DNA from: Candidatus Rokuibacteriota bacterium
Lineage (GTDB): Bacteria; Methylomirabilota; Methylomirabilia; Rokubacteriales; JACPHL01
Assembly (NCBI GenBank): GCA_016188625.1
Contig: JACPHL010000183.1
Coordinates: forward strand, 1-6,653
DNA: 6,653 bases
Direction of reading: 5' to 3'
Shown here: piece by piece, positions 2 to 5,846 of the stretch
How the letters are laid out: the number at the start of each line of letters is the position of its first letter
Numbering within the stretch: the first letter of the stretch is position 1
Notes under the pieces: model-generated
Seen by the model: only the letters and a program-made list of their open reading frames with translations
What the model was told of the DNA's origin: nothing
Database searches by the model: none
Made by a program: the position numbers and the translations under genes

Positions 2-301
2 CGCTACCTGGAGCTGCGCTTCGACACCCCGGCGCGCGTAGCCTTCACGCTGACGAACGCAGGGAATAGCCCGCTGCGCCTGAACGGGGTGCCGCCGGTC
101 ATCCTCAAGGCCGGCTGCTGACCGCCCAAGGCGGTCGTCGGGCAGACGACCATCAAGCCCGGAGGAGCCACGACCCTCCTGCTCGAGTTTACGATGCACC
201 CCGGGATGGGGGGCTACCACGAGTTCTGGGTGCCGGTGCGGACGAACGATCCGGCCGCCCCGGAGCAACGGCTCGTCGTCCGCTCGAGCTGGGGCCCGTG
301 A
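2..301 (+). CDS. DUF1573-like protein, 3' part, probable selenoprotein (in-frame TGA)
   Basis: The gene starts upstream of the window; 99 codons remain before the TGA at 299-301. The frame is interrupted only by TGA at 119-121, inside Leu-Lys-Ala-Gly-Cys-TGA-Pro-Pro-Lys. Protein-like sequence continues on both sides. Before it comes FTLTNAGNSPLRLNGV. After it come IKPGGATTLLLEF, the HPGMGGYHEFWVPVRTNDP stretch and a final beta-strand. This is the layout of DUF1573-type Ig-like domains: a TN-G-xPL strand, a cysteine motif, a PG turn, then an ND-P strand. From memory, relatives carry a Cys pair (GCCPP-like) at this site, so TGA would replace the second Cys with selenocysteine. A SECIS-like hairpin follows at 133-151. 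Such domains are usually exported; a redox or metal-binding role is inferred, not shown. The alternative is a nonsense mutation from a Cys or Trp codon. Family assignment is moderate; readthrough is likely but unproven. Confidence 0.72.
133..151 (+). promoter_or_regulatory. Candidate bacterial SECIS hairpin
   Basis: A perfect 7-bp stem, GGTCGTC (133-139) with GACGACC (145-151), encloses the loop GGGCA. The loop begins 19 nt after the last base of the in-frame TGA (119-121), and its first base is G. Bacterial SECIS elements are known to sit within the coding sequence just after UGA, with a small apical loop about 16-37 nt downstream and a G in its first two positions; this hairpin meets each of those. 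That it recruits SelB is inference. Confidence 0.6.
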
Positions 302-390: not shown

Positions 391-816
391 ATGCAACGGT
401 TCGTGGGTATCGCGATCCTGGTGCTCGCCCTGGCACTGGCGGGCGGCGTGGCCCTTGCCCAGATGGGCGGCGGCCCGCCAGCCGGCATGATGGGGCCGGG
501 CATGATGATGGGCCCTGGCATGATGGGCGGCGGCATGATGGGAGGAGCGACCGGCCAGTCCGGCTGCCCCGGCATGACGGCGACCGGCCCGTCCGGGGCC
601 CAGATCAGCGAGGATCAGGCCAAAGAGCTGGCCCAACAGTACGCGAACAAGTACCTGAAGGGGTTCGCCGTGGACAAGGTCCTGCCCTTCACCGGGATGC
701 ACATGCCGATGTACTCGGTGGAGCTGAAGGGCCCCAACGATGAAGTCCGGGTCCTCCACATCAATCCCTGGGGCCAGGTGATGCCGTTCGGCGGCCCCTG
801 GCGCCGCGCGGGATAG
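391..816 (+). CDS. Exported Met-rich protein, putative copper/soft-metal binding
   Basis: 141 residues. The ATG at 391 follows AGGAGGT (376-382) by 8 nt. Residues 1-23 form a signal peptide ending ALA before Gln24, so the mature protein should be periplasmic or extracytoplasmic. Residues 25-62 are a low-complexity Gly/Pro/Met tract with 11 methionines, arranged as imperfect GPGMM/GGGMM repeats, and one cysteine (Cys59). A folded domain of about 75 residues follows (ISEDQAKELAQQYANKYLKG, then GMHMPMYSVEL and HINPWGQVMPFGGP). Its helix-then-strands pattern recalls PepSY-like domains, but I cannot assign it to a named family. Met-rich extracytoplasmic tracts are known to bind Cu(I) or Ag(I), and the copper ATPase in the same window supports that role by inference. 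It appears monocistronic: its own sigma-54-like promoter and a strong terminator flank it. Confidence 0.85.
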   Translation: MQRFVGIAILVLALALAGGVALAQMGGGPPAGMMGPGMMMGPGMMGGGMMGGATGQSGCPGMTATGPSGAQISEDQAKELAQQYANKYLKGFAVDKVLPFTGMHMPMYSVELKGPNDEVRVLHINPWGQVMPFGGPWRRAG

Positions 817-2650: not shown

Positions 2651-2730
2651 CGCTGGCTCTTCCGCGGCGAGTTGAAGTGACGGGTGATCCTGCTCTCCAC
2701 CGACCCCTCACCCGCCGGCGGCGTCGACAA

Positions 2731-2747
2731 TTGGCACCGGGCTTGCA
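2731..2747 (+). promoter_or_regulatory. Sigma-54 (RpoN) promoter of the copper ATPase operon
   Basis: TTGGCAC-CGGGC-TTGCA matches TGGCAC-N5-TTGCW at all these positions; GG (2733-2734) and GC (2745-2746) are 10 nt apart. The expected start is near 2758. That lies after the GGGAG (2751-2755) that would serve the ATG at 2763, so this transcript would use a near-leaderless ATG, or the GTG at 2775 preceded by GGAGGA (2765-2770). It sits in a 112-bp gap with no visible terminator. The match is strong; the spacing to the gene is the weak point. Confidence 0.55.
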
Positions 2748-2762
2748 CTTGGGAGAGAAGCC

Positions 2763-2933
2763 ATGGAGGAATTCGTGAGGAGCTACGGGCCCTGGATCCT
2801 GCTGGCCGCGGTCTTCGTCGCCATGCACTGGTTCGGAGCCGGATGTGGCGGCCACCGGCGCGACGGCGAGAAGCCCCACGGGCCGGGCGGGGAGAAGGAC
2901 CCGCCTTCCGGGCGGGCGCGCGGCTGCCGCTGA
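2763..2933 (+). CDS. Small membrane protein preceding the copper ATPase
   Basis: 56 residues from the ATG at 2763, with GGGAG at 2751-2755. An alternative GTG at 2775 has GGAGGA at 2765-2770. Residues 8-26 form one hydrophobic helix ([20 protein letters not shown]). A polar tail rich in Gly, His, Lys and Pro follows, with cysteines at 28 and 55 ([13 protein letters not shown]). Short one-helix proteins with Cys/His-rich tails are often encoded just before copper-exporting ATPases, and the tail could carry metal; this is inference from context and composition. The ATPase frame opens about 30 nt after its stop codon, so the two are probably co-transcribed. I do not assign a named family. Confidence 0.68.
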
Positions 2934-2962
2934 CGCCCCAGGCCGGGGAGCTGGGAACGCCC

Positions 2963-3856
2963 GTGGGGAGCGAGCGCCAGACCTTCCGGATCAGCGGCAT
3001 GCACTGCGCGGGGTGCATCGCGAAGGTCGAGGCCGCCATCGGCGGGCTCGACGGGGTCACCCAGGTCGCGGTGAGCCTGGAGCCAGGGCTGGCGCGCGTG
3101 GCGTTCAACCCCGCCCGCGTGGCGCCCGCGAGGATCGCCCAGGCCGTCCGCGAGCTGGGCTACGCCGTCGAGGAGCGCCTCGAGGGGCAGACCGCCCTGG
3201 ACCGGGAGCAGGCGCTCCGGCAGGCGGAGATCCGCCGGCAGGCGCGGTGGATGGCCGTGGCCTGGCCGATCTCCGTCATCATCATGGCCGGGACCTGCCG
3301 CGAGTACTGGGTCCTCCCTGCCCTGATCCCGGAGTGGCTGGGGCGGCCGTTCACCCTCTTCCTCCTGGCCACGCCCGTGGTGCTGGGGCCGGGCTGGCAG
3401 TTCTTCGCCCAGAGCGCGCGCGGCCTGGCCCGCGGCGTCACGGACATGAACCTCCTCTACGCCACCGGAATCGGGGCCGCCTACCTCATCGGGGTCCTCA
3501 ACACCTTCTTCCCGGACGCCGGCTTCGGGGGCGAGAAGGCGATCTTCTTCGAGTCCGCGGTGCTCCTGACCGCGTTCGTCATCCTGGGGAAATACCTGGA
3601 GGCGCTCACGCGCGGGCGGGCGTCCGAGGCGATCCGCAAGCTGATGCGGCTCCAGCCCAAGATCGCGCGCGTGGTCAGGGACGGCGAGGAGCGGGAGGTC
3701 CCGGCCGATGAGGTCGAGGTGGACGACGTGGTCCTGGTCCGGCCCGGGGAGCAGATCCCGGTGGACGGCGTGGTGCTGGACGGCTACTCCGCGGTGGACG
3801 AGTCGATGCTGACCGGGGAAAGCCTGCCGGTGGAGAAGCAGACGGGCGCGGTGGTT
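2963..3856 (+). CDS. copA: Cu(+)-exporting P1B-type ATPase, N-terminal part (frame broken near 3855)
   Basis: First 298 residues of a copper-transporting ATPase. The GTG at 2963 is preferred because the HMA domain starts within ten residues and GGGGAG lies at 2945-2950; the frame is open further upstream, but that part overlaps the small gene before it. The HMA domain covers about residues 5-70, with GMHCAGC (Cys15, Cys18) binding Cu(I). Four membrane segments follow at about 97-115, 130-148, 160-183 and 194-212. The actuator domain then carries [10 protein letters not shown] and DESMLTGES (TGES 284-287), the loop that drives dephosphorylation. The protein-like frame ends at TGAVV (Val298). 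The next expected stretch of the actuator domain, the G-G-T-x-N-x-x-G segment, is missing, and similarity resumes in another frame as [14 protein letters not shown]. As assembled, translation would run on out of frame to a stop at 4568-4570. Confidence 0.85.
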
Positions 3857-5252
3857 TCGAGCCACCAAGGGGGGAAGCGAGACCGCCCTGGCCCAGATCA
3901 TCCGGCTCGTGGAGGAGGCCCAGGCGTCCAAGGCGCCTATCCAGAAGCTGGCCGACTGGGTGGCCGGCCACTTCATCCTGGGGGTCCACGTCCTGGCCCT
4001 GACCGTCTTCGCCTTCTGGTTCCTGGCCGGCTACCGCCTCTTCTTCGACCCGGCCTCGTCGTTCATCCTCTCCCCGGCCGTGCTGGGAGAGATCGGGGTC
4101 TTCGGCTTCGCCCTCCTCCTCTCCATCACGGTCCTGGTGATCTCCTGCCCGTGCGCCGTGGGGATGGCCACGCCCAGCGCCATGATGGCGGGGACCGGCA
4201 AGGGCGCCGAGCACGGGGTCCTCTTCAAGGGGGCCGATGCGATCGAGGCCACGACCAAGGTGCGGACGGTGATCTTCGACAAGACCGGCACCCTGACCCG
4301 CGGGGAGCCGTCGGTCACCGACGCCCTGCCGCTGCCGGGGATCCGCCGGGAGGAGCTGCTCCGGTGGGCGGCCGTGGCCGAGACCGTCTCCGAGCACCCC
4401 CTGGGCGAGGCGATCGTGCGGGCCGCGCGCGAGGCCGGGGTCGGCACGGAGCACCCCGACTCCTTCCAGGCCATCCCCGGCCACGGCGTGGAGGCGGGCT
4501 GGCACGGGCGGAAGATCCTCCTCGGCACCCGCCGGCTCCTGGCGCTCCGGGGCGTGGAGATCCGGGGTGACCAGGAGGAGCTGCTCCAGCGCATCGAGTC
4601 CGAGGGGAAGACGGCTATGCTCGTGGCCGTGGACGGATGGATCGCCGGCATCGTGGCGTGCGCCGATACGCTGAAGCCCTTCGCCCGGGAGGCGGTGGCC
4701 GCGCTCCGCGGGGCGGGGCTCGAGGTCCTGATGCTCACCGGCGACAACCGCCGGACCGCGGCCGCCATCGGCCGGATGCTCGGGATCGATCGGGTGCTCG
4801 CCGGGGTGCTCCCCGAGACCAAGGCCGACGAGGTGGCGCGCCTCCAGGCCGAGGGCCGCGGCGTGGCGATGGTCGGGGACGGGATCAACGACGCCCCCGC
4901 CCTGGCCCGCGCCGACGTGGGGATCGCCATCGGTTCCGGCACCGACGTCGCCAAGGAGACCGGCCACGTGATCCTGATCAAGGACGACCCGCGCGATGTC
5001 GTGGTGGCCCTCGAGGTGGCGAGGGCCACCATGCGGAAGGTCAGGCAGAACCTCTTCTGGGCCTTCGCCTACAACACCCTGGCCATCCCGGTCGGCGCCG
5101 GGCTCCTCTACCCCCTCTTCAAACTCATCGTGAGCCCCGAGCTGGCCGCGCTCCTGATGGCCGTGAGCTCCCTCACCGTGACGCTCAACACGCTCCTGCT
5201 CCGAGGGTTTATCCCGGCCTCGAAGCAGGCCGCCTGGAGGACCGCCTCATGA
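3855..5252 (+). CDS. copA: Cu(+)-exporting P1B-type ATPase, C-terminal part (frame broken near 3855)
   Basis: Last 465 residues of the same ATPase, one frame over. Counting from Phe at 3855, it resumes the actuator domain ([14 protein letters not shown]) and its following helix. Two membrane segments come next. The second holds Cys98-Pro-Cys100 ([15 protein letters not shown]), the Cu(I)-binding motif of P1B-1 pumps. The catalytic domain has DKTGT with the phosphorylated Asp142, HP at 181-182 in [16 protein letters not shown], and GDGINDAP at 341-348. The last two helices carry FAYNTLAIP and [13 protein letters not shown], which fit the copper type. Both parts together give about 763 residues, close to normal length less the missing segment. 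The stop (5250-5252) overlaps the next start as ATGA. All catalytic motifs are intact, so the break is either recent or an assembly error. If real, the pump should not work, unless this half is made from the GTG at 3909. Confidence 0.88.
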
Positions 5253-5672: not shown

Positions 5673-5846
5673 ATGGCGAAGGATCCGGTCTGCGGGATGG
5701 ACGTGGACGAGAGGAAGGCCGCGGCCACGGCGATCTACCAGGGGAAGACCTACTACTTCTGCGCCGTGGCGTGCAAGAGCACCTTCCAGAAGGACCCGGA
5801 GAAGTACGCGGCCGCTGAGAAGGGCGGGACAAAGGGATGCGCGTGA
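5673..5846 (+). CDS. YHS-domain metal-binding protein
   Basis: 57 residues, essentially one YHS domain. The ATG at 5673 follows AAAGGAGGT (5658-5666), which includes the first base of the upstream stop. The domain shows DPVCGM (Cys7, Met9), a middle strand ATAIYQGKTYYFC, then Cys30-x3-Cys34 before STFQKDPEKY. This is the usual YHS order of DPVCGM, YFC-x3-C, F and P-x-KY. YHS domains occur free-standing or fused to copper ATPases and are thought to bind soft metals such as Cu or Ag through these cysteines. A cytosolic metal-handing or sensing role for the adjacent pump is the natural inference. A further Cys56 sits in the Gly/Lys-rich tail. No signal peptide is present. Confidence 0.9.
   Translation: MAKDPVCGMDVDERKAAATAIYQGKTYYFCAVACKSTFQKDPEKYAAAEKGGTKGCA

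Follow-up and report, generated by a model that had tools for sequence, protein, structure and literature searches.

The window analysed here, a stretch of 6,653 nucleotides that constitutes contig C316 of a 2.6-Mb draft genome, opens within a gene whose 5′ end lies beyond the contig edge, so that the N-terminus of its product is absent (Table 1). The remaining frame (2–298) is interrupted only once, by a TGA embedded in the codons GGC TGC TGA CCG CCC, which would encode Gly-Cys-Sec-Pro-Pro within the longer context Ala-Gly-Cys-Sec-Pro-Pro-Lys. The frame is thus open across this TGA, directly behind a cysteine codon, as the original prediction had stated. Downstream of the gene follow a Met-rich secreted protein, an EB_dh-type protein, a CopA-like ATPase, a YHS protein, and DUF5676; the Met-rich protein had no match in Pfam or NCBIfam. 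The frame of the ATPase gene is broken near 3850–3910, inside the E1-E2 domain, which reflects either a frameshifting deletion or an assembly error.

Table 1. Positions of the genes and sequence elements of the window.
Feature	Position	Strand	Remarks
Putative selenoprotein gene, 3′ part	2..301	+	DUF1573/ASH-Hydin-type Ig-like domain, GCU-PP motif, stop TGA 299-301
In-frame UGA, predicted to be read as selenocysteine	119..121	+	TGA at 62/65 homologous loci with a readable site; Cys codon at the remaining 3 and in 2 paralogues
SECIS-type hairpin	133..151	+	Stem 133-139/145-151, loop GGGCA 140-144, 18 nt after UGA
Segment EFTMHPGMGGYHEFW	185..229	+	Met65, Met69, His73 invariant and His66 near-invariant in alignments; ligand role inferred
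Met-rich secreted protein (MMGPGMMMGPGMM...)	391..816	+	Neighbour of the Sec gene, context only
CopA-like P1B ATPase with HMA domain	2684..5252	+	Two frames, 2684-~3868 and 3909-5252; copper context
YHS-domain protein	5673..5846	+	Neighbour

The hairpin that follows the TGA consists of a perfect 7-bp stem, GGTCGTC paired with GACGACC, and the gap from the UGA places the start of its loop at +19, which reproduces exactly the stem and count given in the original prediction. Published limits for bSECIS elements comprise a loop of 3–9 nt, a stem of 4–16 bp, a G at loop position 1 or 2, a spacing of 16–37 nt, and an MFE of −7.5 kcal/mol or lower (PMC13188914). With a folding energy of −11.5 kcal/mol in isolation and a spacing of 18 nt, the window hairpin lies within all of these limits and obeys the spacing and loop rule that had been invoked for it. 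When positions 116–160 were folded together, the MFE favoured a rival hairpin (GACCGCC/GGCGGUC) over the SECIS-type hairpin, and the SECIS assignment therefore depends on conservation rather than on the fold of a single sequence. The rival, a 7-bp hairpin of the form GACCGCC-CAA-GGCGGTC at 120–136, overlaps the UGA. A search of positions 1–420 with Rfam returned no SECIS match, the only hit being a sub-threshold chance match on the opposite strand.

Conservation of the site was assessed at several phylogenetic depths. Matches were found in 22 of 99 related genomes (23 in total); 22 of them contain exactly one in-frame TGA, the remaining one is a fragment that begins past the site, and every readable site takes the form G-C-TGA-P-P. 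A scan of the genomes of 84,980 species (GTDB) yielded 66 loci, distributed over Rokubacteria/Methylomirabilota and Chloroflexota together with a few bins labelled otherwise. Among the 65 loci with a readable site, TGA occurs in 62 and TGC in three (L047, L054, and L061). Each of the 62 TGA codons follows Gly-Cys and is accompanied by a hairpin at equal distance, in Methylomirabilota/Rokubacteria and Chloroflexota alike. The scan relied on two patterns, and it should be kept in mind that VVG[QA]TT, which covers part of the hairpin, is biased towards Sec forms; FTMHxGMG is free of this overlap and bias. In a separate search with a profile, 301 Chloroflexota genomes produced 21 TGA loci that have the motif, along with a single Cys locus, which was the L061 copy again. 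Relatives with Cys at exactly the TGA position, as assumed in the original prediction, exist, namely the three loci above and second copies in L062 and L092. Given that Sec is far commoner than Cys among the members found, these bacteria seem to depend on selenium at this position. Scans of viral contigs revealed no relatives of the GCU protein.

For the hairpin, 58 TGA-bearing sequences were analysed for covariation, with 500 shuffles as a control. Of the stem cells, 94.5% were paired, double changes were counted in 33 cells, and two-sided changes affected six of the seven stem pairs; none of the shuffles reached the observed paired cells, double changes, or covariation score. The latter was 0.289 in register and did not exceed 0.103 once the partners were slid. 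Energies of −7.5 kcal/mol or lower were obtained for 72 of 78 distinct hairpins, and the loop reads GGKNN or AGTTY in all loci. Stems seen with the added loci included GTCGTC/GACGAC, GTGGTC/GACCAC, GTCGTG/CACGAC, GTTGTG/CACAAC, GTCGTA/TACGAC, and ACCATC/GATGGT. Judged from alignments alone, selection acts on the hairpin as RNA, and its pairing keeps a strict register. Four of the five Cys forms lack it despite preservation of the protein sequence, which indicates that coding constraint alone does not explain the element: the isolated-hairpin energy is 0.0 kcal/mol in L061 and −1.4 kcal/mol in L047, and in the Cys copies of L062 and L092 the two stem arms can be seen not to pair. The fifth form, L054, retains part of the hairpin (−5.3 kcal/mol); its genome also encodes its sister, the Sec copy L066. 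Retention of the downstream hairpin in homologues, one of the checks named in the original prediction, is consequently a property mainly of the TGA forms.

These comparisons bear on an alternative in which the TGA at 119–121 is a true stop and the frame behind it a pseudogene, an assembly error, or a separate ORF. Recurrence of TGA and hairpin in dozens of homologues rules out chance, and this alternative survives as a formal possibility only, which we regard as practically eliminated by the identical TGA and covarying hairpin across many independent genomes, the continuity of the domain through the TGA, and the presence of Cys in relatives.

The genome that contains the window is equipped for selenocysteine incorporation, and the four genes sought on the strength of the original prediction are all present: selA, selB, and selC (tRNA-Sec with a UCA anticodon, TCA in DNA) on contig C273 and selD on contig C179 (G000:C179:1347-2267; L105). 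The selD gene carries an in-frame TGA, and in view of this the SelD of this genome is probably a selenoprotein itself. SelA was found above the cut-off in 25 of 32 genomes with a Sec form and in none of the other seven, which are draft assemblies. Co-occurrence of SelA as proof of Sec was dropped, since SelA is encoded in 242 of 301 Chloroflexota genomes; at this base rate co-occurrence is consistent with Sec and not probative. One Cys-only genome (G101, locus L061) had no SelA above the cut-off, a consistent observation, though an isolated one.

An open frame would also result from reassignment of TGA to Trp or Gly, or from its selenium-independent suppression. However, TGA serves as an ordinary stop elsewhere in the window (for example at 1450–1452) and terminates the selenoprotein gene itself, relatives have Cys rather than Trp or Gly, the Sec machinery is complete, and the hairpin is tied to the TGA form, all of which makes this explanation very hard to sustain. 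On comparative evidence, and in the absence of protein, mass, or selenium data, decoding of UGA 119–121 as Sec is nearly certain; the presence of Sec in the protein itself is inferred.

Complete relatives start with basic residues and contain one hydrophobic helix and a single domain, and the protein is inferred to sit outside the membrane on a single-helix anchor. The N-truncated window protein scored 23.7 bits (E = 4.8e-5) against PF07610 (DUF1573), below the gathering cut-off of 26.1, and 28.2 bits against HYDIN_VesB_CFA65-like_Ig, above the cut-off of 25.5. The domain was predicted with a pLDDT of 97.7. Its top structure match is 2qsv, a DUF1573 protein from Porphyromonas gingivalis (Z = 14.0, rmsd of 1.6 Å over 101 residues; sequence match with E = 0.0036); Hydin/ASH/VesB Ig-like domains rank below it, several Hydin/ASH domains at Z = 9.7–11.8. 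As modelled, the domain is an ASH/Hydin/DUF1573 Ig-like β-sandwich. The DUF1573-like assignment made originally thus finds support in the fold, with the Pfam score slightly below the cut-off. In contrast to the window family, 2qsv aligns the GCU stretch to a gap and has no Met/His segment in that domain.

A DUF1573 selenoprotein, OS_HP2, was already known, its motif being given as 'UxC' (PMC2398784) or 'UGC' (PMC13188914). The claim of a new selenoprotein consequently has to be narrowed to the GCU site, as Sec lies elsewhere in OS_HP2. OS_HP2 (NF041425, PF07610) belongs to the same Ig-like domain superfamily and its Sec likewise adjoins Gly-Cys in the same loop, but there Sec precedes Gly-Cys (U-G-C), whereas in the window family it follows directly (G-C-U). 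In a profile alignment, Gly-Cys falls on Gly-Cys, the Sec column of OS_HP2 is occupied by Glu, Ala, Lys, and others in the GCU family, and the GCU Sec column is Thr in OS_HP2; hhalign assigned a probability of 96.6 to the match between the GCU alignment (A5) and the OS_HP2-type protein L145 of genome G067. This Methylomirabilota genome encodes both types, the OS_HP2 type with ITTSUGCT (L145, G067:C69) and the GCU type (L029/L079, G067:C12). Scored singly, GCU family members are matched by NCBIfam release 20 mainly via NF041425, far under its cut-off of 100 (24.1 bits for the window protein, 20–33 bits for three relatives), and NF041425 gave no match above the cut-off in any of 95 genomes. Without a score above the cut-off or the U-G-C motif, the window protein is placed by its sequence outside the OS_HP2 family. 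Selenoproteins with a CU motif (SaoL, SaoC, MbdU, KCU-star, and CopZ-like Csac_0668; PMC13188914, Table 1) share the vicinal Cys-Sec pair but differ in domain, a comparison confined to the listed motif and domain.

The 2026 catalogue treats differing Sec positions within one domain as distinct subfamilies, and a GCU DUF1573 entry is absent from its 119 families (PMC13188914). The GCU family is also not among the new families of the deep-Sep paper, and literature searches on the family, on Sec in Rokubacteria/Chloroflexota, and on DUF1573 with copper yielded the UGC form only. A groundwater-MAG survey, cited in the catalogue (PMC13188914, ref. 66) for 63 selenoproteins in one Methylomirabilota genome, may already list the GCU protein. 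The GCU group is apparently an uncatalogued, widespread selenoprotein group. Without protein data, the joint claim that the window gene encodes a selenoprotein and that its Sec site is distinct from that of OS_HP2 is made with high confidence. It adds a selenoprotein subfamily in two phyla known mostly from metagenomes, the genes of which would be split in two by standard gene callers.

Indications of function come from invariant residues and from gene context. In 48 diverse members, the Asn, Gly, and Leu of an early strand turn, Gly-Cys-Sec-Pro (with Sec entered as Cys), a Met, a Gly-Met, a His, and a Phe are invariant, and a second His is nearly so. Predicted secondary structure, which provides no distance data, places the Cys-Sec pair and the Met/His segment in two inter-strand loops. 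Cys39, Sec40, Met65, His66, Met69, and His73 are inferred to be candidate soft-metal (Cu) ligands.

The neighbours of the Sec gene differ between loci. In the closest relative, an RND/HlyD/OEP efflux set flanks it on one side and a CopA-like ATPase on the other; in Chloroflexota, it ends a run of HMA, PCYCGC, CuA-like cupredoxin, NapH-like, and COX2/cytochrome c genes, and in G243 it directly follows a COX2/cytochrome c gene. On the large Chloroflexota contigs (L139–L143), the recurring run of HMA, PCYCGC, CuA-like cupredoxin, NapH-like membrane FeS protein, and COX2/cytochrome c adjoins the Sec gene and looks like a copper electron-transfer cluster, to which no name was assigned. Cytochrome c (9), cupredoxin (7), PCYCGC (7), COX2 (4), and HMA (4) stood out in a set of 125 nearby genes; none of these five families was among the 25 families listed, each with at least two members, for 125 far genes from the same loci. 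The neighbouring genes were called mechanically, and the family counts are accordingly rough. Glutaredoxin and DsbD-like neighbours occur at some loci. More generally, the context of the GCU family indicates copper, a field in which few selenoproteins have been placed.

Together, the invariant Met/His residues and the copper and electron-transfer neighbours suggest an extracytoplasmic protein that handles Cu(I). In such a model, the product would be a single-helix-anchored, extracytoplasmic Ig-like selenoprotein of the DUF1573/ASH-Hydin type, with UGA 119–121 decoded by the host SelA/SelB/SelC/SelD under direction of the conserved hairpin 18 nt downstream. The vicinal Cys-Sec pair, located in the loop after one strand, would form a Cu(I)-type soft-metal site with the invariant Met, Met, and His and the near-invariant His of the second loop, and this site would hold copper or pass it on where copper redox proteins (CuA/cupredoxin/COX2-like partners) are assembled or protected. 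COX11/CtaG, PCuAC, and Sco are anchored extracytoplasmic domains, Ig-like in COX11, in which Cys or Met/His pass copper to oxidase sites. The resemblance of the GCU protein to them is functional and inferred, a working analogy, and no sequence match to these families arose. By inference, the GCU group probably handles copper outside the cell membrane; that it does so through a Cu(I) site on behalf of copper redox proteins, for which there are no binding data, is an even call.

The original prediction had left open whether the Cys-Sec pair forms a selenylsulfide or a metal site. Either remains an inference; the invariant Met/His and the gene neighbours speak for a Cu(I)-type site. The main functional rival is that the same selenoprotein uses Cys-Sec for selenylsulfide redox chemistry: without carrying metal itself, it would reduce disulfides or oxidised metal sites in its periplasmic partners. 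All TGA forms have the vicinal pair, which resembles the GCU-type tails of thioredoxin reductases; uncharacterised selenoproteins are mostly thought to be redox proteins (PMC13188914), and cytochrome c, glutaredoxin, and DsbD-like genes are found nearby at some loci. We nevertheless consider it unlikely, if well short of dismissible, because it leaves unexplained both the Met, Met, and His that are invariant in the second loop and the cupredoxin, COX2, CopA, and HMA neighbours.

Binding of Hg by vicinal Cys pairs is known from other systems, and the CopA, HMA, YHS, and RND efflux neighbours would also be compatible with a Cys-Sec pair that scavenges mercury, or a different soft toxic metal, outside the membrane, beside a CopA/HMA/YHS efflux cluster and without a role in copper supply. 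This is a still weaker candidate, as copper electron transfer is the better match for the CuA-like cupredoxin, NapH-like, and cytochrome c genes of the Chloroflexota operons.

The copper reading may be extended to a widespread, mostly Sec-containing carrier in which Cys-Sec and Met/His form an extracytoplasmic Cu(I) site for CuA-type/oxidase assembly and Sec was replaced by Cys several times, a proposal that is tentative and falls somewhat short of even. The number of Sec-to-Cys changes could not be fixed, because the tree of the GCU family is based on few columns and has many open forks. At L092, neighbouring paralogues at 1187 and 1785, 600 nt apart, are a Cys form (TGT) without the hairpin and a Sec form (TGA) with it, and the L062 paralogues at 3145 and 6936 likewise comprise Cys and Sec copies, with the hairpin in the Sec copy alone. 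Adjacent copies of this kind constitute a natural test of what selenium contributes.
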